From positions 1-64,000 of the IMG/VR virus record IMGVR_UViG_3300031841_003422: DNA of 64,000 nucleotides; one strand, 5' to 3'. Under the pieces are notes generated by a model. The model saw only the letters and a list, made by a program, of their open reading frames with translations. It was not told where the DNA came from and ran no database searches. Of the stretch, positions 30,001 through 58,972 are shown piece by piece. This DNA comes from a virus. How positions within the stretch are numbered: position 1 is the first letter of the stretch; every line of letters starts with the position of its first letter. Both the position numbers and the translations under genes were made by a program.

Positions 30001-33000
30001 GATGCCGCAGACAGGGCTACTTTTGATAAAGATATTGCAGAAGCAGAAACAAGGGCTGCGTCTACAAGTCCAGCAGAGGCCCGAAAAGGAAAAAGAGACT
30101 TAGTACAATTAAAACAAAACAAGCAACAGTTTTTTAACTTATCAGATGAAGCACGCTTAGGTGAAAAGGGTTTCAATTTAAAAAAGGGAGATAAAAACTT
30201 AGGTAGAGTCAGGAGAAATAAAAAAGGATTATTAAGTTTTGATGACTTATTGCCTAAGCTTGGTGGTGGTGGCAAGGGTAAAGGCGGCTTAAAGGGAATA
30301 TTCTCTAAGTTGGCTGGAAAAATTACTAGTAGTGACAAATCAAAATCATTTGCTTCAGATATTGCTAGTAAAGGAGTTTCAAAAGTTAGAGATGCTGGTT
30401 TCCGTGGCATACCAGAAGATTTGTTTGGTGATGGTCTTCGTGATGGTATTAAAAAATTAGCTAAGAAAGACAACTTTAAAAAAATTAGCAAGGGCTTCTT
30501 TTCTGATTTAGTAGATCAATTTAAAGACCCTAAGAAGTTAAAAGGTGCTTTTAAAAAGGGTAAAAGCATACCTGGTATTATTGCTGCGGTATTAGCTGAC
30601 CCTATTATTAATACTATTGGAGATAAGGTAGGTCTTAAAGAAATTGGTGGTGCTAAAGGTTTTGAATCAGGAAGTACTGTCGCTGCTGGTGCTTTTGGTG
30701 CTGCTTCTGGTGCTGCTAAGGGGGCTGCTATTGGTGCGGGTATTGGTAGCCTTATTCCTATTCCTGTTGTTGGCACTGTTGTTGGTGCTATTGGAGGTGC
30801 TATTGTAGGAGGAATAGATGGATTATTTAGTGGTATCAAAGATCAAAAAATATTTAATGCTCTTAGTTCTTTAGATAAAGCTGCTAAAGCTGCTAGTGAG
30901 GCACTTGGAGACTTAGGGGATGTAGAAAAGCTTGATATAAATAAAGATCAAGAAAAGATTGGTGAGTTTCTTACTGCACAAGAAAAACTTACTAGTTCTG
31001 TTGTAACAACCTCTAAAAAATTAGATGAAATAGAAAATGGCGGTTTGAAAGCCGCAGAAGGAGGCGAGGGCGGTATTCCTGGTGCTTCTGTTATTGGCGG
31101 GGTTTTAGGCGGTCCTGTTGGAGCGTCAGTAGGTGCTGCGATAGACTTAGCTGAAAGTAAAACTATTTCCTCTGCTTTTGCTTCTTCGGAAGAAGCTTTA
31201 ACCGGCTGGAGTCAGTCTTTAAAAGAAAACTCAGGAAATAAGATAGCACAGTTTCTTCAACCTTTTGTTAGTGATTTGGGGGATACTTCTCTTAGTCTTA
31301 AAGAATTTACTTCCTCGATTGAAGATGCTATTACACAAAGCAGTTTATACCAAAATACAATAGGGGCATTAAACAGTATTACATCTACTGTTTCTGGTGC
31401 GTTTAACACAGTTGGAAGCGTTATTAATCAACAAGGAATTACTGGGGCAGCAAGCACCGCTATCGGCGGTGGTTTATCATTTGCTACTGCTGGTATTTCT
31501 GATGAAATTAAAGGTTTATTTACTGGTCAGTCAGGACAAGAAGTAGCAGATGATCGTATTGCTTCTGTTCAAGGAGCAGTATTTTTAGATCAACAAACAC
31601 AGGCTGTAGAAAGCTTTATAACATCAGTTAATTTATTAGACACTGAAAAATTAAAAGAGACAGGTGATGCCTTACAGCAATTAGGTGCAAAATCTCTTGA
31701 TTCTATTTTTGCACTTCGTTCTAGTGCCGAAGCACTTGCAGAATTAGATTTGTCAGACATTGAGGACTTCAATGATCTAGAAAATAGCTTTAAAGGTCTT
31801 GACAAAAATTCTGAACAAACTGCTAGAATATTTAAAAATATTGCTACAAATGCAGCACAGCTTGAGGCTGCTGATTTGGAGAAAGCACTTTCTGGAATAG
31901 CTGGAGAAGACGCAGATTTTAAAGAAGCACTAAAACCGTTTCAGCAAGCGAATAGTGAGTTTTTATCTACACTTCAAGAAGGTGGAGATATACGAAAAGC
32001 AAGCAAAGCTAGAGCAGACAATCTATTGGCTACGTTAGGAGCTAAAATAGGAACAAAGGGTGGTGTACGAGATATAGTAAAAGGCGTTCAAATTACAGAA
32101 AGGGATGAACGGGGAAGGGCAATAAAAGACGAAGAAGGTAATGTAGTAACAAAGGCAGCAGACGCTTCTAATCTTGATGATGTTTTTGCTGCTATAGAGC
32201 AAATATTAGCTGCTGGAGATAAAGCCGATCCTGAAAAATTAGCTGCTGTTACTGCTGCTTTAGGAGGAAATGCTTCCGAGGCAGGAAATGTTTTACAAGC
32301 ATTAAAAGCAAATACAGGAGCACAACAAGATCAGACATTTGCTCAAGTAAAAGCAACACTTGCAGAAAAACAAAGAGACGAACAAATAAGGTCAAGTTTA
32401 AGGGCTTTTGATGCTTTTGGTACTGCTATTGATAAATTAAACAAAGGTGTCTCTAGTATAGCAGATAAGTTTACTACTGTTGCAGATAATATTAATTCAG
32501 AAGTAGAAAAAATACTTTCTGGTGATACATCTATTACTGCTGGTGCTAAATTTAATCCTTTTGAAAATATAGATGCTGCTTCTACGGCAGAAATTAAACA
32601 GGGTGTGGCAAACATTTCCGGTACTATTGGACCAGGTGGAGAAAAGGCTGTTGCAGGAGTAGCCACTGTATTAGATTTTGGTAAAAATCTAGAAGGAAGT
32701 TTTAAGAAATTAATTAATAATGTTGAACAAGATTTAAGTACAAACAAAGTTAGTTCTGGTGATATTAGTGCTTCTGGAATTAGAGAAAGGTTTGAAAAAG
32801 AAAACGCACCAGCTTTAGATGCATTGCCAGATGAAGTAAGGGAAAAGTTTTTATCAGGTTTAGAAGCATCTGTTGGTGCATCAAGACAAGATGGAGGAAC
32901 GATTGGTATAAAAGAACTTAAAGAAAGTTTAGTTGCTGGTGAGTTAACTGCTGGTATAGATCAATTTACAGATCAAACCGCTGCTGCATTAGCGGAGGTT

Positions 33001-34953
33001 ACTAATAGTTTAAATGTTCTTAATGCTGCTGTTATTAATGCTGCTAATGTTCAAAGTGAAATAGCACAGATTGAAACGCAAAAAAGACTAACCATTATAG
33101 GTCAAAGAGAAGCTTTTGAAGATAGATTTAATAAGTTCTTAAATCAAAGTGTTAATGTTAGAGAACAAGCAGAAGAAAGACTGAGAAGTAAGCTTGAAGC
33201 TACTGTAAATGCTGGTGGTGCTGGAGCTAGAGGTGCTGCTGCCGCAGGCGTTGGTGAAACTGATGTTTTAAGTACTGCTTCTTTATCTGATAGAAGAGAG
33301 CGTTTACAAGCCGAAAGAGAAAGTTTAAAAAGGCAATTAGGAGAAGCATCTGGTCAAGAAGGTCTAGCTGGTGGAGCACTTCAAGAACAAGATACAGACC
33401 AATTAATCAAGGCTCTTGCTGATAATCAACAAGCACTTCAAGGAACAAATGATGCTTTACAACAGCTTGGAGATGATGTTACCCAACTTGCTGCTATAGA
33501 AAGCGAGCTTGCTAAATTACAAGAGTCTCAGCTTACCGGACAACAAAAGGCTGCTAATTTGGCTAGAAAGCTTGGTGATGCAAAAACACCACAAGAAAGA
33601 CAAAAGATAATAGAAGAAGCCAATAAGCCTATTGCTGCTTTGGGCAAGGCTAAGAGGTTAGCCGCTGGAGAAGATGTTGGTGACTTTAGTTTTGATGAGT
33701 TAGCAGATTTATTAAGCTTAGATGATTTTACTAGACAACAATTTGGTGTAAGCGATGAAGATTTCGCAAACTTAAAGCAAGTTGCAAGTACGGCTGTAGG
33801 AGAAGGTATAAAGAACGTTGAGGGTGGAGAAGTACTTGGTGACGCAATCGTAAGATCACAAGATGTTGATGCTGAAAAACAACAGCTATTAGATGATGCT
33901 GCCGCTATACAAAAAGAAAAAGAAGCTGCTGTAACATCGCAAGCCAATGATAAGATAGACGCATTAAACAAACAGTTTGTACTTTTAACAAATCAAGTTA
34001 CTACTGCTAAAAACTCTTTAGCTGAACTTACAAAAACAGTTATTGGTTTTAGAGGGGGTGATTCGAGCATAGGTCCAGAAGAAGCTGCTGCTGTAACAGC
34101 CGCTAATACTGGTCAAGTTCCTTCTGATAATCCGCTTGTAAGTCTTGCAGATAGTGGTGCTTTTTCAAACTTGTCTAATGTAACTCCAGAGCAACTTGGT
34201 TTATCTGATTTAGATCAAGCTGAAAATGCAGAAAGGGCAGCATCACTTAGACAATCTCTAGGCGGGGGTGGTCCTTCAACCTCTACTAATGCGTTCGCTT
34301 CCATCGCTGGACAGTTTGATCCAGACGTAGTTTCTGCTGCTAATGCAGCATTTAATGACGGTGCTGATCCAGCGGACATTGCAAGAAGTAACGCTATAGC
34401 TTCATCACTTAGGGATGGTGGTTCAAATGGAATCGCTGCTCCTAATACTCTTTCTGATATTAATGCTCTTAAACCAGATGTTAATAAAATAGCCCAGCAA
34501 AATGCTGTTAATAAGATTTTTGAAGAACAACCAACTCAACAACAATTTTTGAAACAAACTCAAGCAGAAAGAGTAGATAGAGCTAGAGATAAAAATCCAC
34601 TTAGAAACAGGAGGGATTCAAGGCTAGGAAAAGAAATACCTAAAGCATTAGATCAGGGGGGATCAGTCCTTAATGATTCAGCAGAAAAATTATTACAAGC
34701 CAGCCAAGCACTTTCTGGAGAAAACCAGTTTGCAGATAAGGTTTCTCAGGCAGCAGAAAAACTTGCTAATCTTCCAGAGTTAAAGGTTGATTTAAATGCA
34801 CAAGTTGGAACAGTTGATGTAGTACTAAATGGTGGTGCTTTGATGACTTCGTTTGGTGAAAAGGTAAAGAATGATGTTTTAGCTGCCGTTGCAGAACAAT
34901 TAAAGGGTATGCAAACCCCAGATGGTTCTCTTAGTGATCCAAGATTGTCTTAA
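24058..34953 (+). CDS. Tail tape measure protein, 3631 residues
   Basis: The largest gene of the window. Residues 140-500 have the TP901-type core: FERQIVRLQQVTGSSKAQVQ, TLGISQIELAQTAVTLAQTG, and RRAGGVFAQASQDI, with TETADTIATGLRTIFSRLQ-like text. A Gly/Ser linker follows near residue 530. GGFVKGPSHSQGGVQAELEG (about 1310-1330) is the GG-GPSH-GGV motif common in tape measures. Residues 2201-2262 are a Gly-zipper-rich hydrophobic stretch (AIGAGIGSLIPIPVVGTVVG) that may insert into the host membrane during DNA entry. The rest is coiled coil rich in Gln, Ala, Lys and Glu. At about 0.15 nm per residue it predicts a tail near half a micrometre. No lysozyme-like domain is recognised. Confidence 0.9.
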   Translation: MAFDINAQIILSGPKGLTKVRNKIKKDLSSVSVPVKLDFDKGGGKALRDINSQINTLNKSFSQFNSNAQKVSKSIKQAGDNSRRSISNVNSLANTTANLSKNLSKASKDAKKAATEIEAFGKDAALAIRRFSAFTLATGAVFGFVRAVQDGISKGIEFERQIVRLQQVTGSSKAQVQSLDRAIGNLASTLGISQIELAQTAVTLAQTGQSIREVEQSLRAISKASLAPTFGDIKSTTEGVIAALRQFNISASKTEEVLGSLNNVAKRFAVESEDLVSVIRRAGGVFAQASQDIQQGPQQSLNELLAIFTSVRSTTRETADTIATGLRTIFSRLQRKSTIEFLKSFDIQLLDSKDNFIGFFNSFREISTKLEGLGTIELAQVVEELGGIRQIGKILPAIKNFGSVTENAFKVAQQGAKQGLSKDVARATDTLSVKISALSENFSTLIKNITQSKTFQTFAKTAVSVANGFIKTVDALRPLLPLLATLGGIKLIDLGGEFFKGFKDGITKTKDIIDKTEEALDSINKKGGGDSSSGGGGGGGGKGPIGPDSKLLDSLKGNTTALTSNTQALIRNSNLLDKLTRLGIGSNVAKVSDEKSKKKTADQAIAAIPTDPAEALLQNVAETQAATTKKTKEEFQQIASNAEKKKFIRERAGSKESAVQIPVDAKALAAETTKALKEANRTQALTTSNRNKAKFSGVGASRVGGEAEVNAITTQISNIKASNEKLTEALVELQVEFSNEKGELTAKAGTVDQKGSAARKIEKLTDRIARNQDKIANLETKRDNVAPLDIAAIIAETKSAISEKEKSEAKAKEDFETFFAKAGKTAKEKAAQEQATKSLRDKGFVGIPNAVEGNRKVTGDIIKAVEDANIVVDVDLTTGKKLPPQEPVEPIVVTAGSDIDDKRRLKNTSTPVGNLNFGFQNRKVEEVKQKRLTTEESSTSRGVKTRKRNEEEREKLEKQTISTQKEISNSYSQQQAINESITLSLQTSKTNAQEIARNLDILRKTTQKAPIIIPDTPIDTGAGQNTSESSQTRIIGTDASGNIQRERSFNDFLEEVRFESDLRKKSADELKKASKKLEADQDDYILNLGKLYETDTTSAVEAVQKASAKIEATESPTPNIPIAKVNTADKSVFEGGTARPALGGDISDSIDKNEQNLLRVISIKFNETTGQLEKFIQAVGEPIEGEPIKELSDAQKKFLQEQEKIYDKAFPDRNVPGLELGEDIAFPNLFDQTEEGFKKGLKEFEDKLKSIADGAWLTEVEKALSQALQDAIKAGISEEEFQAKISPEIKNAIEEIDQKRADFTGLKKFAKGGFVKGPSHSQGGVQAELEGGEFVVPKKDVDQKTGLPKFENGGSFDDLPEAIKEQAAIAAEAGKGRVPSAVGLKFGRGKGSAANQKAVLTDNIIVDNKPEETGALIGPSEKNNTGLIAAEGNVIDKGLDLIRKINADIVIPEGIKKANLLARGGYGAFGFKETAVDGEGNLTFGGKKEKGRSNAIFDQMKEQINTFSSNLVNGTVPLLNDVLGLTDFFKPISVDSGNVLDEKIIQETFNSLKGAVSESLASVISGSELQGGQESFDLKDLDSAQSARLSTFFESPPGADVTQLKKAEIKANLALARAADGGLVSKVVNEALSNDEFIKRFEIFSAKQVPEDLSTTPFEIQDEKSRGGLTFNANSLLTPGELVFNPKLAEKIGLQNLKRFNRTGDSSPIRNLLGSDISKIATVPGEGNKDTFPATLDKGSFVIKKASSEKSGLQNLNTGGLFGVQSFQNGGQSSGGAGFDTAFFSELAKNVGKATVAFGSLKSVDFSNIGEVISIVPILSAGLEGLFDSFSDATDALLSDEEQKVAEKIEAVDGEIASVEGATEATEGLAEAASEASEAIQELPAKIEKGVNDAVAKLQNLQAGADPSSLANENKAAKSREEKVSKREFQGTAEKPGQDEIDRRAKVKDQRAERNEKRKNLTRQERRELIANDPSRRIRKQDAADRATFDKDIAEAETRAASTSPAEARKGKRDLVQLKQNKQQFFNLSDEARLGEKGFNLKKGDKNLGRVRRNKKGLLSFDDLLPKLGGGGKGKGGLKGIFSKLAGKITSSDKSKSFASDIASKGVSKVRDAGFRGIPEDLFGDGLRDGIKKLAKKDNFKKISKGFFSDLVDQFKDPKKLKGAFKKGKSIPGIIAAVLADPIINTIGDKVGLKEIGGAKGFESGSTVAAGAFGAASGAAKGAAIGAGIGSLIPIPVVGTVVGAIGGAIVGGIDGLFSGIKDQKIFNALSSLDKAAKAASEALGDLGDVEKLDINKDQEKIGEFLTAQEKLTSSVVTTSKKLDEIENGGLKAAEGGEGGIPGASVIGGVLGGPVGASVGAAIDLAESKTISSAFASSEEALTGWSQSLKENSGNKIAQFLQPFVSDLGDTSLSLKEFTSSIEDAITQSSLYQNTIGALNSITSTVSGAFNTVGSVINQQGITGAASTAIGGGLSFATAGISDEIKGLFTGQSGQEVADDRIASVQGAVFLDQQTQAVESFITSVNLLDTEKLKETGDALQQLGAKSLDSIFALRSSAEALAELDLSDIEDFNDLENSFKGLDKNSEQTARIFKNIATNAAQLEAADLEKALSGIAGEDADFKEALKPFQQANSEFLSTLQEGGDIRKASKARADNLLATLGAKIGTKGGVRDIVKGVQITERDERGRAIKDEEGNVVTKAADASNLDDVFAAIEQILAAGDKADPEKLAAVTAALGGNASEAGNVLQALKANTGAQQDQTFAQVKATLAEKQRDEQIRSSLRAFDAFGTAIDKLNKGVSSIADKFTTVADNINSEVEKILSGDTSITAGAKFNPFENIDAASTAEIKQGVANISGTIGPGGEKAVAGVATVLDFGKNLEGSFKKLINNVEQDLSTNKVSSGDISASGIRERFEKENAPALDALPDEVREKFLSGLEASVGASRQDGGTIGIKELKESLVAGELTAGIDQFTDQTAAALAEVTNSLNVLNAAVINAANVQSEIAQIETQKRLTIIGQREAFEDRFNKFLNQSVNVREQAEERLRSKLEATVNAGGAGARGAAAAGVGETDVLSTASLSDRRERLQAERESLKRQLGEASGQEGLAGGALQEQDTDQLIKALADNQQALQGTNDALQQLGDDVTQLAAIESELAKLQESQLTGQQKAANLARKLGDAKTPQERQKIIEEANKPIAALGKAKRLAAGEDVGDFSFDELADLLSLDDFTRQQFGVSDEDFANLKQVASTAVGEGIKNVEGGEVLGDAIVRSQDVDAEKQQLLDDAAAIQKEKEAAVTSQANDKIDALNKQFVLLTNQVTTAKNSLAELTKTVIGFRGGDSSIGPEEAAAVTAANTGQVPSDNPLVSLADSGAFSNLSNVTPEQLGLSDLDQAENAERAASLRQSLGGGGPSTSTNAFASIAGQFDPDVVSAANAAFNDGADPADIARSNAIASSLRDGGSNGIAAPNTLSDINALKPDVNKIAQQNAVNKIFEEQPTQQQFLKQTQAERVDRARDKNPLRNRRDSRLGKEIPKALDQGGSVLNDSAEKLLQASQALSGENQFADKVSQAAEKLANLPELKVDLNAQVGTVDVVLNGGALMTSFGEKVKNDVLAAVAEQLKGMQTPDGSLSDPRLS

Positions 34954-34970: not shown

Positions 34971-36644
34971 ATGTCACATGGTTCAGTAGAATTTAAATAT
35001 GGAAATTATGAGTTTAGACCTGCTCCAATTTTTAATATATCAACAGATGCTTATAAAACATTAGAAGGTTCTGGTTGGGGTGCAAACCATAGGATTGTAT
35101 TAGATGGCGATCTTATATTAACTGGTAATGAAATTCAGCTTGGTGTTACTGGTCTTTTTAAAGAAATAGATAATTTAAGAAGTGCTGTTTCCCAAGATGG
35201 ATATTTATTAGTAGCCACATGCAATGATGGAAGTGGTACTAATCCAATAATTAGTGGTCGCCCAATTGTAAATTCTTTTTCTATAGAAAGCACCCCAGAC
35301 AACTATACTAGATCAGCAAAATATACTGTAGAGTTTGGTATGCCTACCTTGATGCAAGGTACGGGCCAAGACACTATAAATCCAAGTGGTTTTGATGGTG
35401 GTGATCCACACCCAAGAGTTCCAATTCATCCTCCTTTTATTGAATCTTTTTCTGAAAATTGGCAATCAGATTTCAAAGAAAAAAGAATTGGTGCTTCATT
35501 TAGTGGTGATTATAGAACAAGTACTGGTACTGGAATCTATACAGAAGGTTTTTTATGGGATGGTATTTTCACCCATACTATAGATGTTAAAGGAAGAACC
35601 ACATATACAGGAACTAGTAGTCCTACATCATTAGAATCTAAACCGGGTTGGCAATCAGCTTATGATTATGCAACTGGTTATTTAAATGATAAATATGGTG
35701 TTTCATCAGATGCTTCTATCACAACGGTTTCTGCCAGTGGTCTCATAGGTCTTCCTATAACTAATGCGGGACAGTCTTTAATAATATATGATCGTTTTAG
35801 AAATGCATCTATTAATAGAACTGATAACTCTGTTTCTGTAACTGAGACTTTTAGTTTACAGCCTGAAGGGGGGAGTTCTGATAATCTAGGCGGTGCTTTT
35901 GAAACTTTTGATATTAGTCTTTCAACAGAGGGTGGTATTACATCGGCAACAGTGCAAGGTCAGATTCAGGGCTATAGCCTTATTGATTATAAAGCAGGAA
36001 CTAATTACAATGGAGATTCTGTTACTGAAAATCAATTAAGAGAAGAAGAACAGGCTATTGAAAATGCTAGAGAATATTTTTCAAATTTAAAAACTAAAAA
36101 GGTTTTCTTTAAAAGGGCAGCAACCGCTACCTTTAATAGTGAATTCTTTTTACAGGGTGAGTGTCCGAGAGCTATTATATTAGCCAATAGGCCAAAAAGT
36201 ATTACTGTTGGTGAGAACCCATTGCAGGGAACAATTAGTTACAGTATTAGTTATGATGATAGTCTACAGGGATGTATAACGGGTGGCTGTATATTATCTC
36301 AAAACATTACTGTTGACGACCAACTTGAATCAGATGTTTTTGCAACACAAACTATTTTGGGGAGAGCACAAGGACCACTTTTTCAAGATATAGGCACTAC
36401 TACAGCAAGAGTAAAAACTATAAGTGTAGAAATAGTTACTGTTCCTCCTACATCCTGTGCTAGTATTGAAGAAATAAATAAGACTAATCCTAGCGGTCAA
36501 GTAAATAATTTTATAGATTTAATTCACAGTAGTTTGTCAGGGAGCTATTCTCAAGTTTTTACGTCTTCTAATAGTCAAAGTTGGAATTTTACTCAAGGTA
36601 GATATACAAAAAACATTGCTTTTACTTATAATAATTGTAGTTAG
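34971..36644 (+). CDS. Distal-tail or baseplate-like protein
   Basis: A 557-residue beta-rich protein just after the tape measure, the place of the distal tail protein that links tube and tip. Landmarks are the N-terminal KYGNYEFRPAPIFNISTDAY, WGANHRIVLDGDLILTG, and IESTPDNYTRSAKYTVEFG. The C-terminal half has Cys pairs (GECPRA, GCITGGCIL) and a strand-rich end SWNFTQGRYTKNIAFTYNN. It is larger than simple Dit proteins, so it may carry a carbohydrate-binding or arm domain. The function is inferred from order and from the beta composition. The next gene begins the hub/fibre. Confidence 0.5.
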   Translation: MSHGSVEFKYGNYEFRPAPIFNISTDAYKTLEGSGWGANHRIVLDGDLILTGNEIQLGVTGLFKEIDNLRSAVSQDGYLLVATCNDGSGTNPIISGRPIVNSFSIESTPDNYTRSAKYTVEFGMPTLMQGTGQDTINPSGFDGGDPHPRVPIHPPFIESFSENWQSDFKEKRIGASFSGDYRTSTGTGIYTEGFLWDGIFTHTIDVKGRTTYTGTSSPTSLESKPGWQSAYDYATGYLNDKYGVSSDASITTVSASGLIGLPITNAGQSLIIYDRFRNASINRTDNSVSVTETFSLQPEGGSSDNLGGAFETFDISLSTEGGITSATVQGQIQGYSLIDYKAGTNYNGDSVTENQLREEEQAIENAREYFSNLKTKKVFFKRAATATFNSEFFLQGECPRAIILANRPKSITVGENPLQGTISYSISYDDSLQGCITGGCILSQNITVDDQLESDVFATQTILGRAQGPLFQDIGTTTARVKTISVEIVTVPPTSCASIEEINKTNPSGQVNNFIDLIHSSLSGSYSQVFTSSNSQSWNFTQGRYTKNIAFTYNNCS

Positions 36645-36668: not shown

Positions 36669-39600
36669 ATGGCAACTGAATTCGTAAAAAAAAATGATTG
36701 TAGCCCAGCCAGTCTTTATGGACCATTGGTTCAACATATATTTTTGGGGGCAAGTGTACAAAGCTTTAGTGCTTCGGCAGGATGGAACGAACAAGGATCA
36801 TCTCTTACTGTAGAGTTAGCCGAAGACCCTTGTGTTGGGCCGAAAGTATGGTATGATAATGGTGTAAGAAGGTATGGTGATATAGCAGACCCAGGATTTG
36901 TTTATCCCACGCCGGGTGTTCCTGTATATTTTAGAATTGAAGATTTTGAGTTTGCTGGATTAGTTCAAGATTGGACTCAGAAAAATGACGCAAATGGAAA
37001 TCCTCTTTTCTCTGTTAGCATTTCTGACCCCAGATTAATATTAGACAATACTCAAATAATTGTAAATGATTATCCCGGTGATACAGAAAATGTTTATAAT
37101 TTAATTAATGCTTATGGTTTTATAGAAACATTATCTAAAGGTCAAATATGCACTAGTGCGAATACATGTCCTAGCTCTAAAAGATTTGGAGGAACTTCTG
37201 AACAAAACACCTTGAGCTTGATAGCAAATGAAAGAGGTATGTTATGGAAGGATGTAAAGGCTGCTATACATTCACTTTGTTCTAATCCTATTGCACCCGG
37301 TCCTAGTTGCGATCAAAAATATTTAAAAGATAATAGACTTGTATATGTGGGTTCTTCTAGTTCTACATATGGTCGTCTTGCAAGCAATGGTTTTGATAAC
37401 TTAGGTAATTTAAAATCTGATTATTTAATTGATTTAAGTGAAATACCTATTTCTCCAAACTATTATAGGATTTCTGGTCCAACAATTAGCATGTCAGAGT
37501 TAATAAGTCAGGTTTGTTCTGATGCAGGCTGTGACTACTATATAGAATTACAGCCTACTTTTTCTGCTGGTTTAAAAAAGATAATAAAAGTAAGAACAGT
37601 AAGTAGAGCTAATCCTCCTGCGTCCAACGCTTTAGATACCTTTATACTTAATAGACAACTAGCTTATCCTCAAGCAGAAGGGGGTATTATATCATTTACA
37701 AAAGGTAAGGAAGTAAGAAATGAGAACACTTCAATATTTATTATGGGTGGGAAAAAACTTCAACCATATCAATTAACTAGTGAAAGTGGCATTCAAGGCG
37801 ATTCTCCTATTCAGCCTTTTTGGGGCGTAAATTCAGACAATCGACTATTAAAAGCAGAAATTCATCCTTCTGGATACTATAGAGTTCAATTAGAATTTGA
37901 TAAATTAAATAAAAGTCTTAATACTCCTGTAGAGGAAAAGGCTTGGATTACTGAGCCTGAGATTAGAGCAGCACTTATGGACTACTCTAGCTTTAAGTCA
38001 ATGACTGCTACTATGAGTGGTGATTTAGGTGGAGAGCTAGGCGAGCACCTTAGTACAATCGGAAATAAGCCTGAAAGAGATAATGCTGCTAATCTTGAGG
38101 CTGCAAAAGGCAATGTTCCTGTAGGTGATATTGTAATCCCAAGACCCCAAGACGATAATAAAGATAGAGGGTTTGAAGAAAACGCTGCAAAAGATTCTGA
38201 CTTAATTTATGACTTTGTAAAGTCTTATGCTCAAGATTATTATGGAAAACAGTTTTTAGTAAATAGCGATGGTATTCCTGTATGTTATAAGCTAGATTCA
38301 GCATCAGCTTTTGGTAGTGGAGTACCACCCACCTATAGGTTCACTCATGATACATCAAATCAAGCTTGGGTTTTAGATGGAACTAGTCAGGTATTGGGTT
38401 TAACTCATAATAGTCCTGCTACAGATTTCTTTAGAGATGAACAAGGTTTATATCAACCAATATTAAGGTTTCCTTTGCTAAGTGGATTGCTTTTGGGTAG
38501 CGGTACTTATGCTACTGGAGACCCCTCTTATATTGGAGATCAAGACTATATAACTAATGGAACAGGAACAGGTATTTCTGATCCTAGTGTTTGGGTAAAG
38601 GCACAAATAAATGATAAGTGGGTTCTTGGAAATAACCTTGATCCTAGTGGTGATTCTATTTATTTCAATATTACTATTCCTGCTCCATTTACACAAGTTT
38701 CAGCATATCTTCCTGCATTTGATGCACTTGCTTTTAAAGAAAACTTAAACGCAGCAGCAGCCCTCACTGATATTCCAACTGGTTTAAATCAAGGTGTTGA
38801 AAAGGGTAGCTTTGTTGATGGTTTGTTTCCATCAGCGGCACTTCCTGACTCCGCATTTTGTTGTGTTCAAAATAACTTAGAGGTATATGGACCTTTTGGA
38901 GTTGCGGGAGCACCCGGTTCGGTGTCATTAGAAAATGATGATGGTTTAGTTCCTTGGGAGTATGGTAGCGATCAAATCATGGAACAAGCTGCTTTACAAA
39001 AGGTTCAAGATGCTGCAACACAGATGAGGCAATCAGAGAGAGGTTCTGTAACTTTAGCTGGTTTTCCAGAAATTCCTTTAGGTGCTGAATTAAATTATTC
39101 TGCTGGTTTACAAGACTATATAGAAACAAGAAATGCAACTTTAGAACCTGTAACTGATGGTCGCTCATTTGTCAAGGTTGTTAAATCAGGTTGGACTGGT
39201 TCGGGTGGTCCTAACTTAACCAATGTTAATGTTAGTGTTGGTGCAGGAGGATTCACTACTTCATATCAGTTTAGCACTTATACACCGCAGTTTGGTAAGT
39301 TTTCTAAGGGCAATGCTGAAAGACTAAAAAGAATAGGTCAGACCAGACTTCAAAACATGAGAAATGTTAGAGCTAAAAGATTAGAAAAATCTTCTTTTAG
39401 CTTTGATAGAACTAAACAATTTTTAGAAGATAAGATAGGTAGAACTGCAAAGGCTCCCAAATCAGCACATCATACATTGGTTGGTAGAATAACCAATAGT
39501 GGTAGAGTAGAAATAAATAGCCAAAATATTCAAGAGTTAAATGTTGCTATACCTACTGATAGTGGCTATGCAAAAACTGCCATTATGAGTTGGGATGGTA

Positions 39601-42600
39601 TTATAAGACCTGTATCTAAAAGCGGTGATGGTGGACTACCTCGGTTTATTTCTTATCAAACTGGTGAATGTAATAGTTTTAAAACTTCTAGCACACAACC
39701 TCCTTCTCAAGATTATACACCTCTTAGTGTAACTCAAGCATTTTTAGACCCTTTATCTAATCCAGACTCAGTTTTGTTGACAGAAAGATCAGACGCAGCT
39801 TCTAGCGGTCATGATTTTGAAATTTTAGCTAGAAAAGAAAATCAAGATATTTCTGGATGGAGTGTTCAAAAAAATAAAGAGTATGAAGATGATTATCGTT
39901 TTATGGCACTTCGTGGCCCTTTAATGATTCAGGGGTGGGGCTATGATACAAACAGTAAACCTATTCCTAATTCTGTTGATGTTGTGTCTAATATAACAGG
40001 CAATGGTCAATATGAGTCGCAAGGCTTGACAGATAAGTTTTTAGATGGCTTTCTTCAACAACCTGAGACTTGGCCTGTAGCACCTTTAGATTTAAGATTA
40101 GATAGAAAAAGAGGAGTGTGGACTGTTGCTCAACAGCCTCGACCAGTTCATGTAAATATAACAGGCTGTATTGGTACTGGTAGTGCTGTAGCAACGGCGA
40201 CAAATTTAGCTGAAACTTATGATGCTGATGGAAACGCTGTTTCAGATCAAATATCTATTACTTGGCCTTGGGATATTTCTAATCCTACGGGCATAGGTAA
40301 GGTTCCTGTTTATTATGATGATAACGATTGTAAAAACTATGTGTTTCCTATAAATAGATTTGATGCGGCATATATAGCTTTTGGCGACCCAGAATCCCAA
40401 AAGAATACTATCTATGATACAAAATCAATAGTTTTTAGCGGTTTTGAGGTTATAGAGACTATTGAAGATTGTCAAAATTCATTGTTAGTAAAACCTAGTG
40501 GTAGTGGTGATGCTGTTTTTCTTTGTGTCAGTGGTTTAAATACTTGCCCAGAAGACTTCGGTGGTTATTTAAAACAAAATGTAAATGGGTGTTTGGCTTT
40601 TGGTTCTGGTCTTTTTATAACTGGTTATGATGCTACTAATCTAAGAGTTGACACAAATCTTGTTGCTAGTGGTACAGAATATATTCAAGACGGGTGTTCT
40701 TTTACTGAAGTTGAAGGCACTGTCGAAAAAAGATTTACTAAACTAGGATTTGCAGGTAATCTTTCTACAACGATAGATACTGATATAACTAGCGACTGTG
40801 CTGTTATAGTTAGTGGTTTTCAACAACCAATACCTATAACTAATTCTGGGGTTTGCGGTGATATCGAAGAAAATACTTTGTTCTCTTCTTTAATTATCGG
40901 TACTGGTTTAAGATATGTTGACAGAGATGCTATTACTGATTGTGAAGTTGAATTGCGTAGTAACATAAGAGCTTTAGGTACAGTATATACTAGAAGCGAT
41001 TTAATTGGTTGCACGTGGGCAAAGGATGGAAACCCATCATTTGATACCTTATTTGAAAACCTTAATTTTGTAGGAAATATTTCTGTTACAGGAGATGATT
41101 GTGATGTTTATGTAAGCGGTTTTCAACAGCCTCTTGCTATGATTAACTCTGGTGTTTGTGGAAGAGACAACGAGTTTGTTGGCGGGGGTGTTCCTGATAC
41201 ATATTGGGATATTTTAGTTGCTAGAACTGGTCTTAAATGGCACTATGAAGGAGAGGGAGAACATGGTTGTACGGGTGTTTTAGATGTAATATTGCAAACT
41301 TCTGGAGCACCTTGGATTAGAACCTATGGAGGAGATTGTTCTCTAACGGATGGTGATCCAACTTCAAATGTTTTTGAAAGAATCGCTTTTACCGGTAATC
41401 TTTCTCATATTCCTAGTGGGTGTACAAGTATTGTTAGTGGTTTTAATAATATTGTAGTTAGTGGTCAAACTTGGTCTACTGATTATAATAATTGCGATCC
41501 TTATGTAGCAAGTGCTCCTCTTGGTAATGGGGGGATATTAGATAAAATAATATTTACTGGTGAACTTTCTACAAGTTTTGGTAGTAATTGTGAAGTTATT
41601 GTTAGTGGTTTCCATCAGCCAAACTTTATTATTGATACTGGTACTTGCGGCGGTATAACATTAGATACTTATAACGCAGATACTTTTATATTTGGTACTG
41701 GTTTAGATGTTGTGGAGAAAGAAGTAGATGGTAAATGTGCCATGCTTATCAATCATAATCTTACGATTAGTGGTTATGATCTTGTAACAAATCCACTTGA
41801 TCCGTGTGGTGATCGTGTAGATGGTGCTAAGACTGAGACTACAGCTTGGGAAAAAATAGCTTTTACTGGTAATATTTCTGTAAGCACTGGTCTTAATCCT
41901 TGTGATATTTTTGTTAGTGGTTTTCAAAATAATATTCCTATAACTGGAGAAAAATGGACTAGGGATGGAGGTAGTGAAGGCGATACCGATTATCAGTGCT
42001 ATTGGTCACAAACAGGTTATAATGTACAAGCTAATTTTGATTCTATAGGAACCGCTGGTTTTATCAGTCTTATTACTGGTGCGGGTTGTGAAGTATATCT
42101 TAGTGGGGTGGAGCAACCGTTTAGATTTATAGAAAGCGGAACCTGCGGTTCCACAACACTTGAAACTTTTAATTCAAAAGGCTTGATCTTTGGTAGTGGA
42201 TTAAAAGCCAGTATGATACCAGATTCCAATTGTAGTGGTATTGTTGAAGTTGATATTAAAGCACAGGGGGTTCAATGGACAAGAATTTCAAGTCCTCCCA
42301 CTAGCTGTGGTTGGCAACCCACTGTTATTAGCACAGAAAGAAGATTTGAAAATCTAATTTTTGAAGGTAATCTTTCTGTAACTGGAAGTACTAATGGTTG
42401 CAATATACATATTAGTGGAGTTCAACCTTCTATTAAGGTGCAAGGCTTGGAAGAGTGTCCTAGCATTAGTGCTTTTGCTGAATCCGATATAAGTAAAATT
42501 AGGTTTGGCACTGGGTTACAACTAACTCTGGAAGCTGGTGCTGATGCTTGTGATGATGGACCAAGAGTAGATGTAAAGCTTATTGCAGATGGTTTTGATA

Positions 42601-45600
42601 GAAGAGGTGGTACTCCAATTGCTGTTACTCAAAGGTTTACTAAAATAAATTTTGGAGAAAACCTTGGAATAGAAAGCGATGGTGCTTGCGAAATCACTGT
42701 TACTGGAATACAAACAAATTTAACGCTATCTGGAATAGCATCATGCAATAATTCTAATTATCTTAAAGAAACCATATCAACTTTAAAAATTGGCAGAGGA
42801 TTAAAAGCTGAAAATACTAACGAGGTACGCCTTGATTTATGGTTTAAGGGTAATGAGTATACTGATTCTTGTACTAAGGGTGCTGGTCTTGAATCAAATA
42901 CTGTTACAGGAATAGAATTTAGAGATATTGCCCTTTCTGAAAATGTTTCTGACTGCTCTTTAATTGTAAGCGGTCTTAAAACTGTGCAGTTAGCGGGTGT
43001 TGATGATTCTGGTTCTGGCTGTGGTACTGTAGTTGCCCCCTTTGATGCTAAAAGGCTTATATTTGGTACTGGTTTAGAACTTGTAGACAATGGTTGTTCT
43101 GGTGTTGTTAATTCAACGTTGAAAGTTAGCGGTAAAGACTCAACCCTTGTTACTATAACCGACCAGCCTGTTACAAGTTTTAACTTTTTATCAGATACCC
43201 CTACTAGGACTCCAATTTATGTAAATACTGACGGGTGTGAAATCACTGTTAGTGGTGGACCTGCTAGAATATTGGTTAGTGGTATAACAAGCTGCGATCA
43301 AGCTGGTAGTGCATATTATTCAGCATTAAAAGAAAACCTTGAATTTGGAAAAGGTCTCTTTGTAACCGATGGTAGTGAACCAGAATCAGCAAAGATTGAA
43401 TCAGTTTTTTATGTCGCAGGCGATACTGACAATGGTTGTGGAACAACTACAGCGGCGGCAAGTGTTACTGGATTAGTTTTTGGTTCTGGTCTAGAATTAA
43501 CAAATGGTACTTGTAGCGGTGTTGTAAGAACAAACCTTATTGCAGTAGGTACTGACAAGAGTGGCGGTGGTAGTTCTCTTGTTCAAAAAAGGTTTACTAA
43601 ATTAAAGTTTCATGCTGACGATTTTAGCCCATTCTCTATCCAAGAAGACTCAGGAGATAATTGTCAAGTTATAGTTAGTGGAGTTCCAGTGATGGTAACT
43701 TCTGGGCTTTTAGCTTGCGGTAGGGCGGCTGTTCCTTCCCAAATATCTAGAGGAATAGGTTTCGGAACCGGTTTACAGTTAAACAGTGATTCTCAAGTAA
43801 ATGCTGTGCATAAAGTACAGGGAACTGATCTTGGTGGAGGAAGCTTCACTACTCAAGTATTTGAAACACTTACTTTTGGAAGTGGTCTTTCTTCTGTAAA
43901 TAAATCTAATTGTGAAGTTGAAATCAATATTGATTCGGCTCCAGTTTGCATTAGCGGTCTTGATACTTGCGGTGGCTCTGCTGTTGCTGAAAGCACATAT
44001 GAATGTATAGGAATTGGCACAGGTCTTAAAATAACCAATAATGGTGCTAGTGCTTTAATTGAAAGTAATATTCAAGCAGAAGGTACAGACAAAAGAAATG
44101 GAAGTAGTTCTGCTATTGCTTTACAGCAGTTTGAATCACTTAACTTTATAGGTGGTATTTCTGTTCATGAAGGAAGCGAGTGTGAGTTATTTATTAGTGG
44201 AATTGAAATAAGCATAATAGGCGATGCCGCTTGTGAAAGAAGTGCTGTTGCTGAGTTCAAAGCTAATACTTTTGAGTTTGGAACAGGCTTGCAGGTTGTG
44301 CAAGATAGCAATAAAGTTCTTGTTGATTCTGTGATAAATGCAGCCGGTGATGGTTTCCCTGCTGCTGTATTTGAGAATATAGTATTTGAAGGTGGTCTTT
44401 CTGTAAGCGGTGATGGTTGTAATGTACATGTTAGCGGTTTAGACTTTATTTTCTCTGGTATCAATACATGTCCAAAGGACGGAGGTGGATACCTAAAAGA
44501 GAGTATTCAACAAATATCAATTGGTAGTGGACTTATAGCTACAAATGATGCTTCCGTAGGAAGAATAGACCTAAATTTAACTGCTAGTGGATTAACCTAT
44601 CCTGTATTAGAAGCATATCCTTGTGACACTAATGCTGTTCAATTAGATAGAACTAATTTTACTAGTTTAAACTTTGTTGGAAATCTTAGTGTTGAAGCAG
44701 ACCCAGCCAATGATTGCAGATTACTAGTTAGCGGTATACCTTCTATATTTAGTGGTATAGGAGTCTGCATGAGGAATGTAGTTGATCCGTTTGACGCTTG
44801 CTTGCTTGCTGTTGGAACAGGATTGCAATTATCTGAAAGAGACGGCAAGGCAATTCTTAATTCTACTTTAACAATACAACAGCCAGCAGACACTTCAACC
44901 TGTTATGACACAATAGCAGACCCCACGGCTTTTGAAACAATAAGTATTTCTGGTTTTGGTGCTAATGTAAGTGATTGTGGATTAACATTAACTCATAAGC
45001 AGAATATTAAGAAAACAGAAGAAGCCAGTTGCTTCTTTAATATTGATGGAAGCGGCACTTTTGCTGAAACTCCATTCAAGGTTTTAGATTTTGGAGAAGG
45101 TATTTTAGCAGAAGTTAATGGTTGTGTTGCCACTATAAAAGCTGGTATAGCGGGATATGCAAATAACGGTTCGTGTACGGAGTCTGATTATAGTACTCCT
45201 GTAACTGATTTGGTTACTGCCGTTGGTGCAGGTCAAGGTATTTTTGCTGAAATAGATAATTCTGCTGGCTGTAATGCTATAACTTTTTCTCAACCTTTAT
45301 CGCTTTGTAGTACTAATCTTGCTGGTCAATCTATTACCAAATCGGCAAGCTCGCCATACCCAGATACGACTTGTTCAATTACAGACTGTACTGATGGTAC
45401 TTGGAACGCTGGAAATGGCCCCTTTGAAGAAAGAAGATCGCCTAAAGCTTGGAAAAATATTGTAGCTGGTCCCGGTGTTGGCATTACAGCGGGTTGTTCA
45501 GGACTATCAGACGATGGATTATCTGGTGATGCAGACGGGGATTGTACAACGATCTTTTATAGTAATCATATACTAAATGGTAAGACTTGTGACAATCAAG

Positions 45601-45926
45601 ACGTTCTTGTTATACAGCAGTTCGATTGGAATTATGATTGTGATTTTGAATTAACACAATCGGCATCTACTCCTACTTCTCAGTTTGATGGTGCTGATTG
45701 GACTCAATCAACAATAATTAAATTAAGTGAAACGAACGGTGGTAATAATTGTTGGCAAGGTCAGATTGTAACTGGTTGTGAGTCTGATGGTGGCTATGTT
45801 ACTTCGTGCTTGACTGCAACAATTGCTGGCACTGCTTCTTGTAATGGAAAGTACTGGCTTAAAGATATTCCTGCTGGTTGGATAAATGGTACGGATTGTA
45901 ACAGTAGTTGTCAAAATCCAGAATAA
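36669..45926 (+). CDS. Giant tail hub/central fibre protein with Cys-containing repeats
   Basis: A 3085-residue protein. The N-terminal part (to about residue 450) is hub-like: VPVYFRIEDFEFAGLVQDWT, SVSISDPRLILDNTQIIV, and MSELISQVCSDAGCDYYIEL resemble gp27/gpD-type hub domains that cap the tube. A middle region to about residue 1280 is beta-rich. From about 1285 to 2780 there are 16 or more copies of a two-part unit: FxxLxFxGNLSV...C.VxVSGF, then FGTGL.....C. The C-terminus is Cys- and Gly-rich and ends GTDCNSSCQNPE. It is probably the receptor-binding central fibre at the tip. Repeats and cysteines are unusual for a phage fibre. Role inferred from place and the hub-like start. Confidence 0.75.
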   Translation: MATEFVKKNDCSPASLYGPLVQHIFLGASVQSFSASAGWNEQGSSLTVELAEDPCVGPKVWYDNGVRRYGDIADPGFVYPTPGVPVYFRIEDFEFAGLVQDWTQKNDANGNPLFSVSISDPRLILDNTQIIVNDYPGDTENVYNLINAYGFIETLSKGQICTSANTCPSSKRFGGTSEQNTLSLIANERGMLWKDVKAAIHSLCSNPIAPGPSCDQKYLKDNRLVYVGSSSSTYGRLASNGFDNLGNLKSDYLIDLSEIPISPNYYRISGPTISMSELISQVCSDAGCDYYIELQPTFSAGLKKIIKVRTVSRANPPASNALDTFILNRQLAYPQAEGGIISFTKGKEVRNENTSIFIMGGKKLQPYQLTSESGIQGDSPIQPFWGVNSDNRLLKAEIHPSGYYRVQLEFDKLNKSLNTPVEEKAWITEPEIRAALMDYSSFKSMTATMSGDLGGELGEHLSTIGNKPERDNAANLEAAKGNVPVGDIVIPRPQDDNKDRGFEENAAKDSDLIYDFVKSYAQDYYGKQFLVNSDGIPVCYKLDSASAFGSGVPPTYRFTHDTSNQAWVLDGTSQVLGLTHNSPATDFFRDEQGLYQPILRFPLLSGLLLGSGTYATGDPSYIGDQDYITNGTGTGISDPSVWVKAQINDKWVLGNNLDPSGDSIYFNITIPAPFTQVSAYLPAFDALAFKENLNAAAALTDIPTGLNQGVEKGSFVDGLFPSAALPDSAFCCVQNNLEVYGPFGVAGAPGSVSLENDDGLVPWEYGSDQIMEQAALQKVQDAATQMRQSERGSVTLAGFPEIPLGAELNYSAGLQDYIETRNATLEPVTDGRSFVKVVKSGWTGSGGPNLTNVNVSVGAGGFTTSYQFSTYTPQFGKFSKGNAERLKRIGQTRLQNMRNVRAKRLEKSSFSFDRTKQFLEDKIGRTAKAPKSAHHTLVGRITNSGRVEINSQNIQELNVAIPTDSGYAKTAIMSWDGIIRPVSKSGDGGLPRFISYQTGECNSFKTSSTQPPSQDYTPLSVTQAFLDPLSNPDSVLLTERSDAASSGHDFEILARKENQDISGWSVQKNKEYEDDYRFMALRGPLMIQGWGYDTNSKPIPNSVDVVSNITGNGQYESQGLTDKFLDGFLQQPETWPVAPLDLRLDRKRGVWTVAQQPRPVHVNITGCIGTGSAVATATNLAETYDADGNAVSDQISITWPWDISNPTGIGKVPVYYDDNDCKNYVFPINRFDAAYIAFGDPESQKNTIYDTKSIVFSGFEVIETIEDCQNSLLVKPSGSGDAVFLCVSGLNTCPEDFGGYLKQNVNGCLAFGSGLFITGYDATNLRVDTNLVASGTEYIQDGCSFTEVEGTVEKRFTKLGFAGNLSTTIDTDITSDCAVIVSGFQQPIPITNSGVCGDIEENTLFSSLIIGTGLRYVDRDAITDCEVELRSNIRALGTVYTRSDLIGCTWAKDGNPSFDTLFENLNFVGNISVTGDDCDVYVSGFQQPLAMINSGVCGRDNEFVGGGVPDTYWDILVARTGLKWHYEGEGEHGCTGVLDVILQTSGAPWIRTYGGDCSLTDGDPTSNVFERIAFTGNLSHIPSGCTSIVSGFNNIVVSGQTWSTDYNNCDPYVASAPLGNGGILDKIIFTGELSTSFGSNCEVIVSGFHQPNFIIDTGTCGGITLDTYNADTFIFGTGLDVVEKEVDGKCAMLINHNLTISGYDLVTNPLDPCGDRVDGAKTETTAWEKIAFTGNISVSTGLNPCDIFVSGFQNNIPITGEKWTRDGGSEGDTDYQCYWSQTGYNVQANFDSIGTAGFISLITGAGCEVYLSGVEQPFRFIESGTCGSTTLETFNSKGLIFGSGLKASMIPDSNCSGIVEVDIKAQGVQWTRISSPPTSCGWQPTVISTERRFENLIFEGNLSVTGSTNGCNIHISGVQPSIKVQGLEECPSISAFAESDISKIRFGTGLQLTLEAGADACDDGPRVDVKLIADGFDRRGGTPIAVTQRFTKINFGENLGIESDGACEITVTGIQTNLTLSGIASCNNSNYLKETISTLKIGRGLKAENTNEVRLDLWFKGNEYTDSCTKGAGLESNTVTGIEFRDIALSENVSDCSLIVSGLKTVQLAGVDDSGSGCGTVVAPFDAKRLIFGTGLELVDNGCSGVVNSTLKVSGKDSTLVTITDQPVTSFNFLSDTPTRTPIYVNTDGCEITVSGGPARILVSGITSCDQAGSAYYSALKENLEFGKGLFVTDGSEPESAKIESVFYVAGDTDNGCGTTTAAASVTGLVFGSGLELTNGTCSGVVRTNLIAVGTDKSGGGSSLVQKRFTKLKFHADDFSPFSIQEDSGDNCQVIVSGVPVMVTSGLLACGRAAVPSQISRGIGFGTGLQLNSDSQVNAVHKVQGTDLGGGSFTTQVFETLTFGSGLSSVNKSNCEVEINIDSAPVCISGLDTCGGSAVAESTYECIGIGTGLKITNNGASALIESNIQAEGTDKRNGSSSAIALQQFESLNFIGGISVHEGSECELFISGIEISIIGDAACERSAVAEFKANTFEFGTGLQVVQDSNKVLVDSVINAAGDGFPAAVFENIVFEGGLSVSGDGCNVHVSGLDFIFSGINTCPKDGGGYLKESIQQISIGSGLIATNDASVGRIDLNLTASGLTYPVLEAYPCDTNAVQLDRTNFTSLNFVGNLSVEADPANDCRLLVSGIPSIFSGIGVCMRNVVDPFDACLLAVGTGLQLSERDGKAILNSTLTIQQPADTSTCYDTIADPTAFETISISGFGANVSDCGLTLTHKQNIKKTEEASCFFNIDGSGTFAETPFKVLDFGEGILAEVNGCVATIKAGIAGYANNGSCTESDYSTPVTDLVTAVGAGQGIFAEIDNSAGCNAITFSQPLSLCSTNLAGQSITKSASSPYPDTTCSITDCTDGTWNAGNGPFEERRSPKAWKNIVAGPGVGITAGCSGLSDDGLSGDADGDCTTIFYSNHILNGKTCDNQDVLVIQQFDWNYDCDFELTQSASTPTSQFDGADWTQSTIIKLSETNGGNNCWQGQIVTGCESDGGYVTSCLTATIAGTASCNGKYWLKDIPAGWINGTDCNSSCQNPE
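40521..45000 (+). repeat. Repeat array in the fibre gene, 16 or more degenerate units
   Basis: Two alternating motifs mark each unit. The first, (V/I)SG after a nearby Cys, begins at about 40521, 40801, 41103, 41421, 41594, 41901, 42088, 42401, 42689, 42956, 43239, 43665, 43940, 44182, 44420, 44717 and 44979. The second, (F/I)G(T/S)GL, occurs between them (for example about 41691, 42190, 42505, 43067, 43480, 43760, 44012, 44277). Spacing averages near 285 bases, about 95 residues, and ranges from 173 to 426. The DNA is diverged, so the units are old and kept at protein level. Confidence 0.8.
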
Positions 45927-46250: not shown

Positions 46251-46985
46251 ATGGCTAATGAATGTAATTGTAGATGTACTGCTGTGGGCGGCAAGGTTTG
46301 TTTTGACGACTGCCAAATAAGCAGAGTTGATGTTCTTAGATATGAAAGCGATTTTGGCGGCACTGTTGATACTTTTCGCTTTAAAGCTTGCGGCGTAGCT
46401 TATGATTGTAGTTCGGAACCTACTCCGCCAGGTTTCCAACCCGGACCCCCAATAGAAGATTGTACAGCCAGTGTTAAGGCTACTATACCCTCATATAACG
46501 GATTTCCTGGGATTCCTCCCGACCCTACTGTTATTGACCAAGACTTGCCGATGATTACTGGGATTCCATTAACAATCGTTAATGGTGGTCCCAATACTAA
46601 ACTTTTTTGTGCAGACATTACCTATGTTGTAACAGGGATTCAAACACTATTTGATCCGTTTGTATCAAATCCAGATGACGGATGGCCTAATATTTGCTAT
46701 CATGTTCAAACTGAAATAAATTGCAGTACTGATCCTACACCGTTGCCTTCAGCCCCCAATAATTCAAATGATCCTTGCAGGGGTTGCCAAACCACTACTA
46801 TAATTTGCATAAGCAGTACACCATTTATAGATTGGTTTAATGATCCAAATGTTGTAGATAGTCCTACAGATACAAACTATGTTTTAGTAACTCAAAAGGT
46901 ACAGCAAATTCAAAATAGCTATCCTGAACAACCGGGTGTTTATCAGGGGGGTTATTTGAATCCTTCTGGATTAGACTTGGTGTAA
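46251..46985 (+). CDS. Cys-rich protein of unknown function, paralogue of the gene at 806
   Basis: A 244-residue protein, last gene of the + strand block. It begins MANECNCRCTAVGGKVCFDDC and shares order, Cys positions and ending with the gene at 806-1552: (M/P)ITGIPL, FCADITYVV, the DPCRGCQTTTIICIS pair, and QQIQNSYPEQPGVYQGGYLN against QEWQNTYPDQSGVYKGGYVT. The copies differ much in the middle, so the duplication is not recent. The Cys pattern suggests a metal-binding or disulfide-rich domain. Lying after the Cys-containing fibre, it may serve the fibre. I do not recognise the family. Confidence 0.8.
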   Translation: MANECNCRCTAVGGKVCFDDCQISRVDVLRYESDFGGTVDTFRFKACGVAYDCSSEPTPPGFQPGPPIEDCTASVKATIPSYNGFPGIPPDPTVIDQDLPMITGIPLTIVNGGPNTKLFCADITYVVTGIQTLFDPFVSNPDDGWPNICYHVQTEINCSTDPTPLPSAPNNSNDPCRGCQTTTIICISSTPFIDWFNDPNVVDSPTDTNYVLVTQKVQQIQNSYPEQPGVYQGGYLNPSGLDLV

Positions 46986-47486: not shown

Positions 47487-48232
47487 TATTTAACTCCAAA
47501 TTCTTCTTCCCAGTTAGGGTTATAACCAACGAGTTCATCAGGAGTTCCCTCCCTTTGAAAAGTAGATAACTTGTTAATCATTAGACGACCTTCCAAGTTA
47601 TTAACGTCACGGATACTCTTAGGCTGATCCGCATTAGCCTTAACGAACTTAATCAAGTCAACATTGTTTCTTTTAGATAAAGTTTTAATTGCAACAATTT
47701 GTTGGTCATTGATAGGTTCGCTTGTATTTAGTTCATCTTCTTCTTTGTTAGAAAGTTCTTCTGCTGTCTGTACTCTAATTTTCAATGCTCTACGCAACGC
47801 TTTTCCTTCTGCTCTAGTACATGCAGTAGAAACAAGATGCTGATTGAATGGTGGTGGTAGCTTTTCTCCTAGAACATCTACACATGCACTAACTCTAACT
47901 TCAACAGGAACTTCTTGCACTTGTGCTTGCCATTCTCTAGTTTGATCGTATTTTCTAATAATCAATGTATGCTTTGCACTGGCTTTAAACGGACCAGTTT
48001 TTGCAGGAACTTCTAGAATCTGGGTATCAGACTCTACAATTTCACCATAGATTTTTTCACAAACCCTTCTTAATCCATCTGTTGTTGGTGCTCCACCAGC
48101 AAGTTCATGGTCAGATAATTGATCTAGCACATACTCAACCCATTTTGGGTCAGTCGGTCTTGGCAATTCAATAGATGTTGCCTCAGTATTAGCTTCTTCG
48201 TCCTTTACTTCTTCCTCGATCATGTCTTTCAT
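47486..48232 (-). CDS. Probable single-strand annealing / recombination protein
   Basis: A 248-residue protein. The motif HLVSTACTRAEGKALRRALK (about residues 131-150) is of the type A-TRAEGRALR-AL, seen in phage single-strand annealing proteins. The region before it has strands such as KASAKHTLIIRKYDQTREWQ and VPVEVRVSACVDVLGE. The C-terminal 60 residues form a helical charged domain with an INDQQIVAIKTLSKRN stretch that looks like a HeH or SAP-type helix pair. It is co-translated with the zinc-ribbon gene downstream. It would anneal ssDNA in recombination-dependent replication. The name is by resemblance; Erf or Rad52-type is not resolved. Confidence 0.5.
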   Translation of the reverse strand: MKDMIEEEVKDEEANTEATSIELPRPTDPKWVEYVLDQLSDHELAGGAPTTDGLRRVCEKIYGEIVESDTQILEVPAKTGPFKASAKHTLIIRKYDQTREWQAQVQEVPVEVRVSACVDVLGEKLPPPFNQHLVSTACTRAEGKALRRALKIRVQTAEELSNKEEDELNTSEPINDQQIVAIKTLSKRNNVDLIKFVKANADQPKSIRDVNNLEGRLMINKLSTFQREGTPDELVGYNPNWEEEFGVK

Positions 48233-49023
48233 ATTTCAAAGTACCTTTCGTTTTCAGCGGGAAATTTGTTTTTTATGCTTTCAAGAACTTCTAAGACAGA
48301 CAGAGCAACATTTCTAAATTGTCTTTGTGAATCTCTCTTTAATAATTTTACTCTGATAAGAGCCATACCAGAAGATAAAACCAATCCATTTTTCTGTGAA
48401 TCTGCCGCTTGTCTTCTTTGTAATCTATCTTCTCCAAATACCGGTTCAAAATGACTAGGCCCATCAATCTCGATAGCAGTTATACAATCTCTAACATAAA
48501 GGTCGATATGGAATTTTTCATTCTTTAAGAAATGTTCCTTGTGTCGGTCAACCCTGTAACCTTTCTCAATCAGGAAATCAGACAGATACTTCTCTACTTT
48601 AGAGCCTGATCTAGCGGCCTCCTGCACCCCTGCTGTCGCTTTCCTAAAGAATTCGTCCTTCTCCTCATCTGTCTTGCTGTTCCATGCCTCTCGGCCTATC
48701 TGAGAGCGATACAGTTTTTCTTCATCTGTTAGCGAGTCCCAAACTTTTCCTTGACTTTCACTAATCTTTAGTTTTGTTTCATCAGAAAGTTTTTTTCCTT
48801 TTGTTGGATGTTCGCGTCTACCTTCTGAAAGAGCAGCCTTTTGAGCATCTGATTTGCTTCTAGATATTACTCCTAATTTTTTAGCGTCTCTACGAACTCT
48901 GTTTGGATAAGTGTTTAACATATCTGCTATCTCTTTCCAGCTTTTCTTTTTTTCGTGATACTGCTTATTGTAATAGGCTAGTCTGGTTTCTCCAGCATCG
49001 TTAAAAAATTTATTTTTACTCAT
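48229..49023 (-). CDS. Free-standing homing endonuclease (NUMOD plus Vsr-like nuclease)
   Basis: A 264-residue protein in three parts. Residues 20-52 look like a helix-turn-helix (KKKSWKEIADMLNTYPNRVR). Residues 66-100 hold a NUMOD3-type motif (KGKKLSDETKLKISESQGK). Residues 140-232 are a Vsr/DUF559-like PD-(D/E)xK nuclease with E144, D174 in FHIDLYV and AIEIDGPSHFE (E185, D187, H191). Such a mix is known from EDxHD homing enzymes. It has no intron or intein around it and lies between the recombination gene and the glycan locus, overlapping the next gene by 4 bases. It probably spreads by cutting related phages that lack it. Confidence 0.72.
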   Translation of the reverse strand: MSKNKFFNDAGETRLAYYNKQYHEKKKSWKEIADMLNTYPNRVRRDAKKLGVISRSKSDAQKAALSEGRREHPTKGKKLSDETKLKISESQGKVWDSLTDEEKLYRSQIGREAWNSKTDEEKDEFFRKATAGVQEAARSGSKVEKYLSDFLIEKGYRVDRHKEHFLKNEKFHIDLYVRDCITAIEIDGPSHFEPVFGEDRLQRRQAADSQKNGLVLSSGMALIRVKLLKRDSQRQFRNVALSVLEVLESIKNKFPAENERYFEI

Positions 49024-58667: not shown

Positions 58668-58972
58668 TAATCTATATTCCTTATAATATTATTATCGAGT
58701 TCAGGCATGATTCTGGCACTAGGTGTAGCCATAAATGAATAAAATGAATACACCAGCATAGAAAATGCTATCGTAGCCAGAAGTGACGCACCAATCATTT
58801 TCATACTTTCAATATCTAAACTAAGTTTTAGTTTTACTTTCTTCGCTGTTCTTTTATATTTAAATTTTGCTGGCAGCTTTTTAGGTGGAGGCTTGTCTCG
58901 TCGAAACATATCCTGCAAACCCTTTTCTGCTGCCCTTTGAGTTTTAGATTTAACCCTTGGGTCAGTTTTCAT
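58667..58972 (-). CDS. Small single-pass membrane protein
   Basis: A 101-residue protein. Residues 1-50 are very basic (Lys/Arg-rich, PPPKKLPAKFKYKRTAKKVK); residues 58-84 are one hydrophobic helix (MIGASLLATIAFSMLVYSFY); the last 17 residues are polar. By the positive-inside rule the basic part would be in the cytoplasm, where it could bind DNA or anchor the replication proteins to the membrane. It shares a base with the genes on both sides. A holin is less likely because of the basic half and the place within replication genes. Confidence 0.65.
   Translation of the reverse strand: MKTDPRVKSKTQRAAEKGLQDMFRRDKPPPKKLPAKFKYKRTAKKVKLKLSLDIESMKMIGASLLATIAFSMLVYSFYSFMATPSARIMPELDNNIIRNID

Follow-up and report, generated by a model that had tools for sequence, protein, structure and literature searches.

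The phage tail gene at 36669–45926 (+ strand) encodes a 3085-aa tail hub with a C-terminal fibre extension, most of which is a tandem array of 32 cysteine-containing half-units of ~45 residues. This array is likely the shaft of a central fibre, in which β-hairpin beads would be pinned by disulfides and the number of beads differs from phage to phage. The window analysed is a stretch of 64,000 nucleotides, itself part of a 69,921-base IMG/VR virus fragment. The array (16 A and 16 B half-units, aa 1300–2846) runs from 40566 to 45206 (+), slightly wider than the 40521–45000 originally assigned to it. It is preceded in the same open frame by the hub region (aa 1–1277; 36669–40500, +), which is conserved, Cys-poor and 37–48% identical to five relatives. 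It is followed by a Cys-rich C-terminal region (aa 2847–3085; 45207–45926, +), which contains 14 Cys, is kept in relatives and is a candidate tip or cap.

The fibre gene lies at the end of a conserved gene order, shared by the window and its relatives, of tape measure, 557-aa gene, and hub/fibre. The tape measure protein (3631 aa; 24058–34953, +) was identified by a PhageMin_Tail match (E=5.7e-23). The 557-aa tail protein (34971–36644, +) has counterparts of 505–579 aa in the same position in relatives and, by position only, is presumably the distal tail protein. This arrangement resembles that of siphophage hub proteins of the lambda gpJ type, which carry a C-terminal central fibre. In both, a large gene encoding an N-terminal hub and a C-terminal fibre comes after the tape measure gene and one for a protein of distal-tail size. 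The window protein differs in that its extension is a Cys-paired tandem array and its hub profile has no match in PHROGs, Pfam or PDB at the sequence level. Its 85 Cys are unevenly distributed, making up 1.1% of aa 1–1240, 3.5% of aa 1241–2846, and 5.9% of aa 2847–3085. Most other proteins of the virion module contain 0–1% Cys and the tape measure protein has none; Cys in the window phage are thus confined to the tail tip.

Unit borders were set by anchoring on motifs, and the 32 half-units (37–62 aa) align in register with loops of varying length. The A half-unit is defined by FxxLxFxGNLSV...CxVxVSG......SGxxC and the B half-unit by xxLxFGTGL.....C..xV...LxxxG....C. A profile built from the units at aa 1989–2846 matches aa 1291–1988 in eight stretches with 198 bits, against 4.5 for the best of 200 shuffles. 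Reverse cross-validation, using the other half of the array as the profile, gives 202 bits (best shuffle 8.6). The in-register repeat reported in the earlier note is therefore real. The unit it described, ~95 residues in at least 16 copies, corresponds to one A half-unit plus one B half-unit. The two profiles match each other (hhalign probability 94%), so that A and B are two related flavours of an elementary unit of ~45 residues. The alternation of the two motifs also holds for the most part, but the window contains two A-A neighbours and one B-B, and relatives are ordered A-B-B or almost all A. Degenerate-looking copies flank the array at both ends. Neither hub nor array is covered by a family in Pfam, PHROGs, NCBIfam or PDB, and these databases showed no resemblance to any fibre family whose repeat has been described. 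Two PDB profile matches, to the designed repeat Tako8, where no single stretch was significant, and to a mouse antibody (E 0.32), were dismissed as chance.

The Cys of the array follow a marked rhythm. All A units in the window contain the core Cys (16/16) and also a tail Cys, which usually lies 17–24 residues further on. B units are more variable; several have no Cys at all and about half lack the core Cys, so the persistence of the motif Cys that was first claimed applies to A units but not to B units generally. Across seven phages, 41/41 A half-units carry the core Cys, as do 47/69 B half-units, and 37 of the 41 A units have a single tail Cys. Core and tail Cys are mostly 14–20 residues apart across the arrays. 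Short and long Cys spacings alternate in 189 of 336 neighbours, whereas 2000 shuffles gave a mean of 23 and a maximum of 43. The two spacings are 14/28 in L078, where the rhythm is near-perfect over ~11 units, 16/30 in L072, and 17–20/26–32 in the others.

A second regularity concerns how Cys are lost. Along the chain, both in the window and in L062, there is strict alternation between B units that have a tail Cys but no core Cys (t) and units with the opposite pattern, core present and tail missing (c). L062 gives a string of 15 such odd units (t c t c ...), and the window gives c t c t c t. Permutation of the strings, which were read by hand with extra-Cys units omitted, gives 2e-5, or 2e-4 when three similar L062 super-units (42–46% identical), which are partly duplicates, are counted once. 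Such alternation would follow from Cys being bonded in pairs, with some pairs shared by neighbouring units. The pairing breaks at the end of the window array, where a tail Cys is unmatched, and the L077 series is less regular. A bond purely within the unit was ruled out as an account of the B units, as joint loss of both Cys within a B unit is not enriched. The 95% identical relative L002 retains 85/85 Cys with 4% of residues changed, which is modest evidence alone because its rate of change predicts about four altered Cys.

These patterns bear on two other roles for the Cys. They may be ordinary buried core residues of a β fibre that stay reduced, as could be supposed from the core Cys, which sits within the alternating hydrophobic strand pattern CxVxV. 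However, the tail Cys lies in polar, Gly/Ser-rich surroundings, the invariant core Cys of A units is never replaced by Val or Ala, and core and tail Cys are lost in a complementary manner, all of which render this reading very improbable. Alternatively, the Cys may bind metal (Fe, Zn or Fe-S), as in the metal-linked rod suggested in the earlier note. One use for such a metal-loaded rod could be to bait siderophore receptors with iron (the Trojan Horse or Ferrojan Horse idea). Iron-binding HxH motifs have been reported in T4 gp37 and in marine phage fibres such as that of Alteromonas phage R22Y (PMC11705849). Like the Cys of the array, these residue pairs are regular along a phage fibre, and the complementary Cys loss could fit two-Cys sites shared between the chains of a trimer. 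The pairs in T4 gp37 and R22Y are His-based, though, and the window array has no HxH and only 0.7% His; the eight other arrays contain just two HxH, both in L077. The CxxC and CxC clusters typical of Zn or Fe-S proteins are likewise absent from the window array, with one CxxC among nine arrays and no CxC. Metal binding is accordingly disfavoured and very unlikely.

A disulfide-linked rod is supported indirectly by the alternating spacing, the complementary Cys loss, the Cys-poor neighbouring proteins, and natural variation in array length between a conserved hub and a conserved C-terminal domain. Compared with the earlier note, which offered a disulfide-linked rod, a metal-linked rod, and a set of binding domains side by side, the first has been made more likely and the other two less so. 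The proposed shaft would sit between the hub and the C-terminal tip domain and is probably trimeric. Each ~45-residue half-unit would form a small β-hairpin bead, whose first strand starts from the core Cys (CxVxVSG) and whose second runs back to finish at the tail Cys. These Cys would bond once the virion has left the reducing cytoplasm, either within one chain or between the chains of the trimer. Some B units may have a shifted bond, joining the tail Cys of one unit to the core Cys of a later one. Tandem gain or loss of beads would then set the reach of the tip.

Structure prediction offers some indication of such hairpins. AF2 models of four window half-units reached a pLDDT of 31.5, and four L078 units modelled with a 27-row alignment reached 54, with local hairpins only; both monomer models had a pTM of 0.2–0.3. 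Obligate trimers are often poorly predicted as monomers. The L078 model places strands at residues 11–16, 19–23, and 27–29 around Cys18 and Cys32, with residues 11–20 being the best stretch (pLDDT 82). In the hairpin of strands 19–23 and 27–29, Cys18 would lie opposite Cys32 if the turn is at residue 25, which is suggestive only. A Foldseek search of this model against PDB returned nothing at E≤0.001.

Disulfide-linked tails are known from the Agrobacterium phage Milano (PMC10811340). Its short tail fibre gp31 consists of two trimeric beads, each of three stacked β-hairpins with bead domains of 34–39 aa, and is held by the inter-subunit disulfides Cys84–Cys102 and Cys127–Cys144, with spacings of 18 and 17 (PMC10811340). 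The window array similarly has a Cys pair in a small module, mostly 14–20 residues apart in ~45 aa compared with ~17–18 in gp31, and both phages combine a Cys-rich virion with a DNA-delivering tail. Milano gp31, however, has two beads in 300 aa and is a side fibre of a contractile tail, whereas the window array has ~32 half-units and extends the hub. Milano also carries Cys throughout its tail and baseplate, while those of the window phage are concentrated at the tip. Homology between the half-unit and the Milano beads was rejected, as gp31 receives −1.1 bits from the A profile and −0.4 bits from the B profile, values inside the range of shuffles. Since the sequences are unrelated, the array is an analogue rather than a member of the Milano beads, and by this analogy it would function as a string of about 32 of them.

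When the array, the hub, the tape measure, unit motifs or Cys-rich proteins were used directly as queries, only the contig of L002 was recovered, and sequence searches found no cultured phage. The unit alignment is too variable for a scan. Relatives were reached by way of a DnaE half, which gave 19 contigs, several of which matched the unit profile and the hub, and then by a six-sequence hub alignment, which gave 31 viral loci. Besides the window, a hub ORF of 1503–3106 aa ends in a Cys-rich extension in 13 distinct phages (near-duplicates and the 95% relative left out), eight of which contain at least five recognisable half-units. The ORF stops at the hub in L065 and L068 (1297 aa), and in L066 (1394 aa) the hub is joined almost directly to the C-terminal domain. 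Array length therefore ranges from almost none in these three, short forms that could be faked by repeat collapse during assembly, up to ~35 half-units, with the hub kept throughout and the C-terminal domain often. The last ~200 aa of the window protein are also conserved in L061, L062, L064, and L067 (E 1e-6 to 1e-16). A conserved hub, a variable array, and a conserved C-terminal domain together define the architecture of these proteins. More distant hubs (L079–L090) mostly have no Cys-rich extension, and the half-unit occurs in none of them. The hub gene is also carried, at 35% identity, by L091 (JABXKB010000027.1); this contig was placed in a Lokiarchaeota MAG but is probably a misbinned phage contig.

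This length series also bears on the proposal that the repeats act as successive receptor-binding domains, with Cys merely stabilising small folds. The units are strongly diverged, so their surfaces could differ, and their loop lengths vary. Against this, the copy number can fall from ~35 to almost none while the hub is retained, as is the C-terminal domain, which occupies the usual tip position, and profile and database searches revealed no similarity to any binding domain. A binding role for the repeats is hence unlikely. For a disulfide-pinned shaft, the same series would be a way to test shaft length against adsorption.

The repeat family is unlisted and occurs in at least 14 uncultured phages, with a Cys pairing that the sequence by itself makes legible. 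Confirmation of the disulfides would mean that covalently stapled fibres recur in phages that assemble in a reducing cytoplasm and are not peculiar to Milano. The disulfides might further act as a mechanical or redox switch, in which the fibre would lengthen or collapse stepwise as its bonds are reduced or exchanged at the host surface, triggering genome release. This is conceivable because bonds could form inside a bead as well as from one bead to the next, but it is a long shot.

Further Cys-rich proteins are encoded outside the fibre gene. A 244-aa protein (5.7% Cys; 46251–46985, +) lies directly 3′ of it and is a possible tip accessory. Its 248-aa paralogue (6.0% Cys; 806–1552, +; BLASTP E=7e-26) is located at the head-gene end, with 30% identity and 13 Cys aligned; elsewhere the pair was found in the 95% relative only. 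Proteins with 7–10% Cys also directly follow the fibre gene in L071 (15410), L074 (7891), L077 (13425), and L078 (13575), all on the + strand. They form a related set (L071/L077 E=1e-36) without clear similarity to the Cys-rich protein of the window.

Two other features of the window were observed on the − strand. DNA polymerase III alpha is encoded in two ORFs, 56693–58318 (PHP and polymerase) and 59904–61790 (finger and HHH), which are separated by the ORF at 58972–59664. Adjoining the tail module, a NUMOD3/DUF2726-type protein (48229–49023), possibly related to homing endonucleases, occupies a place that is conserved in relatives.
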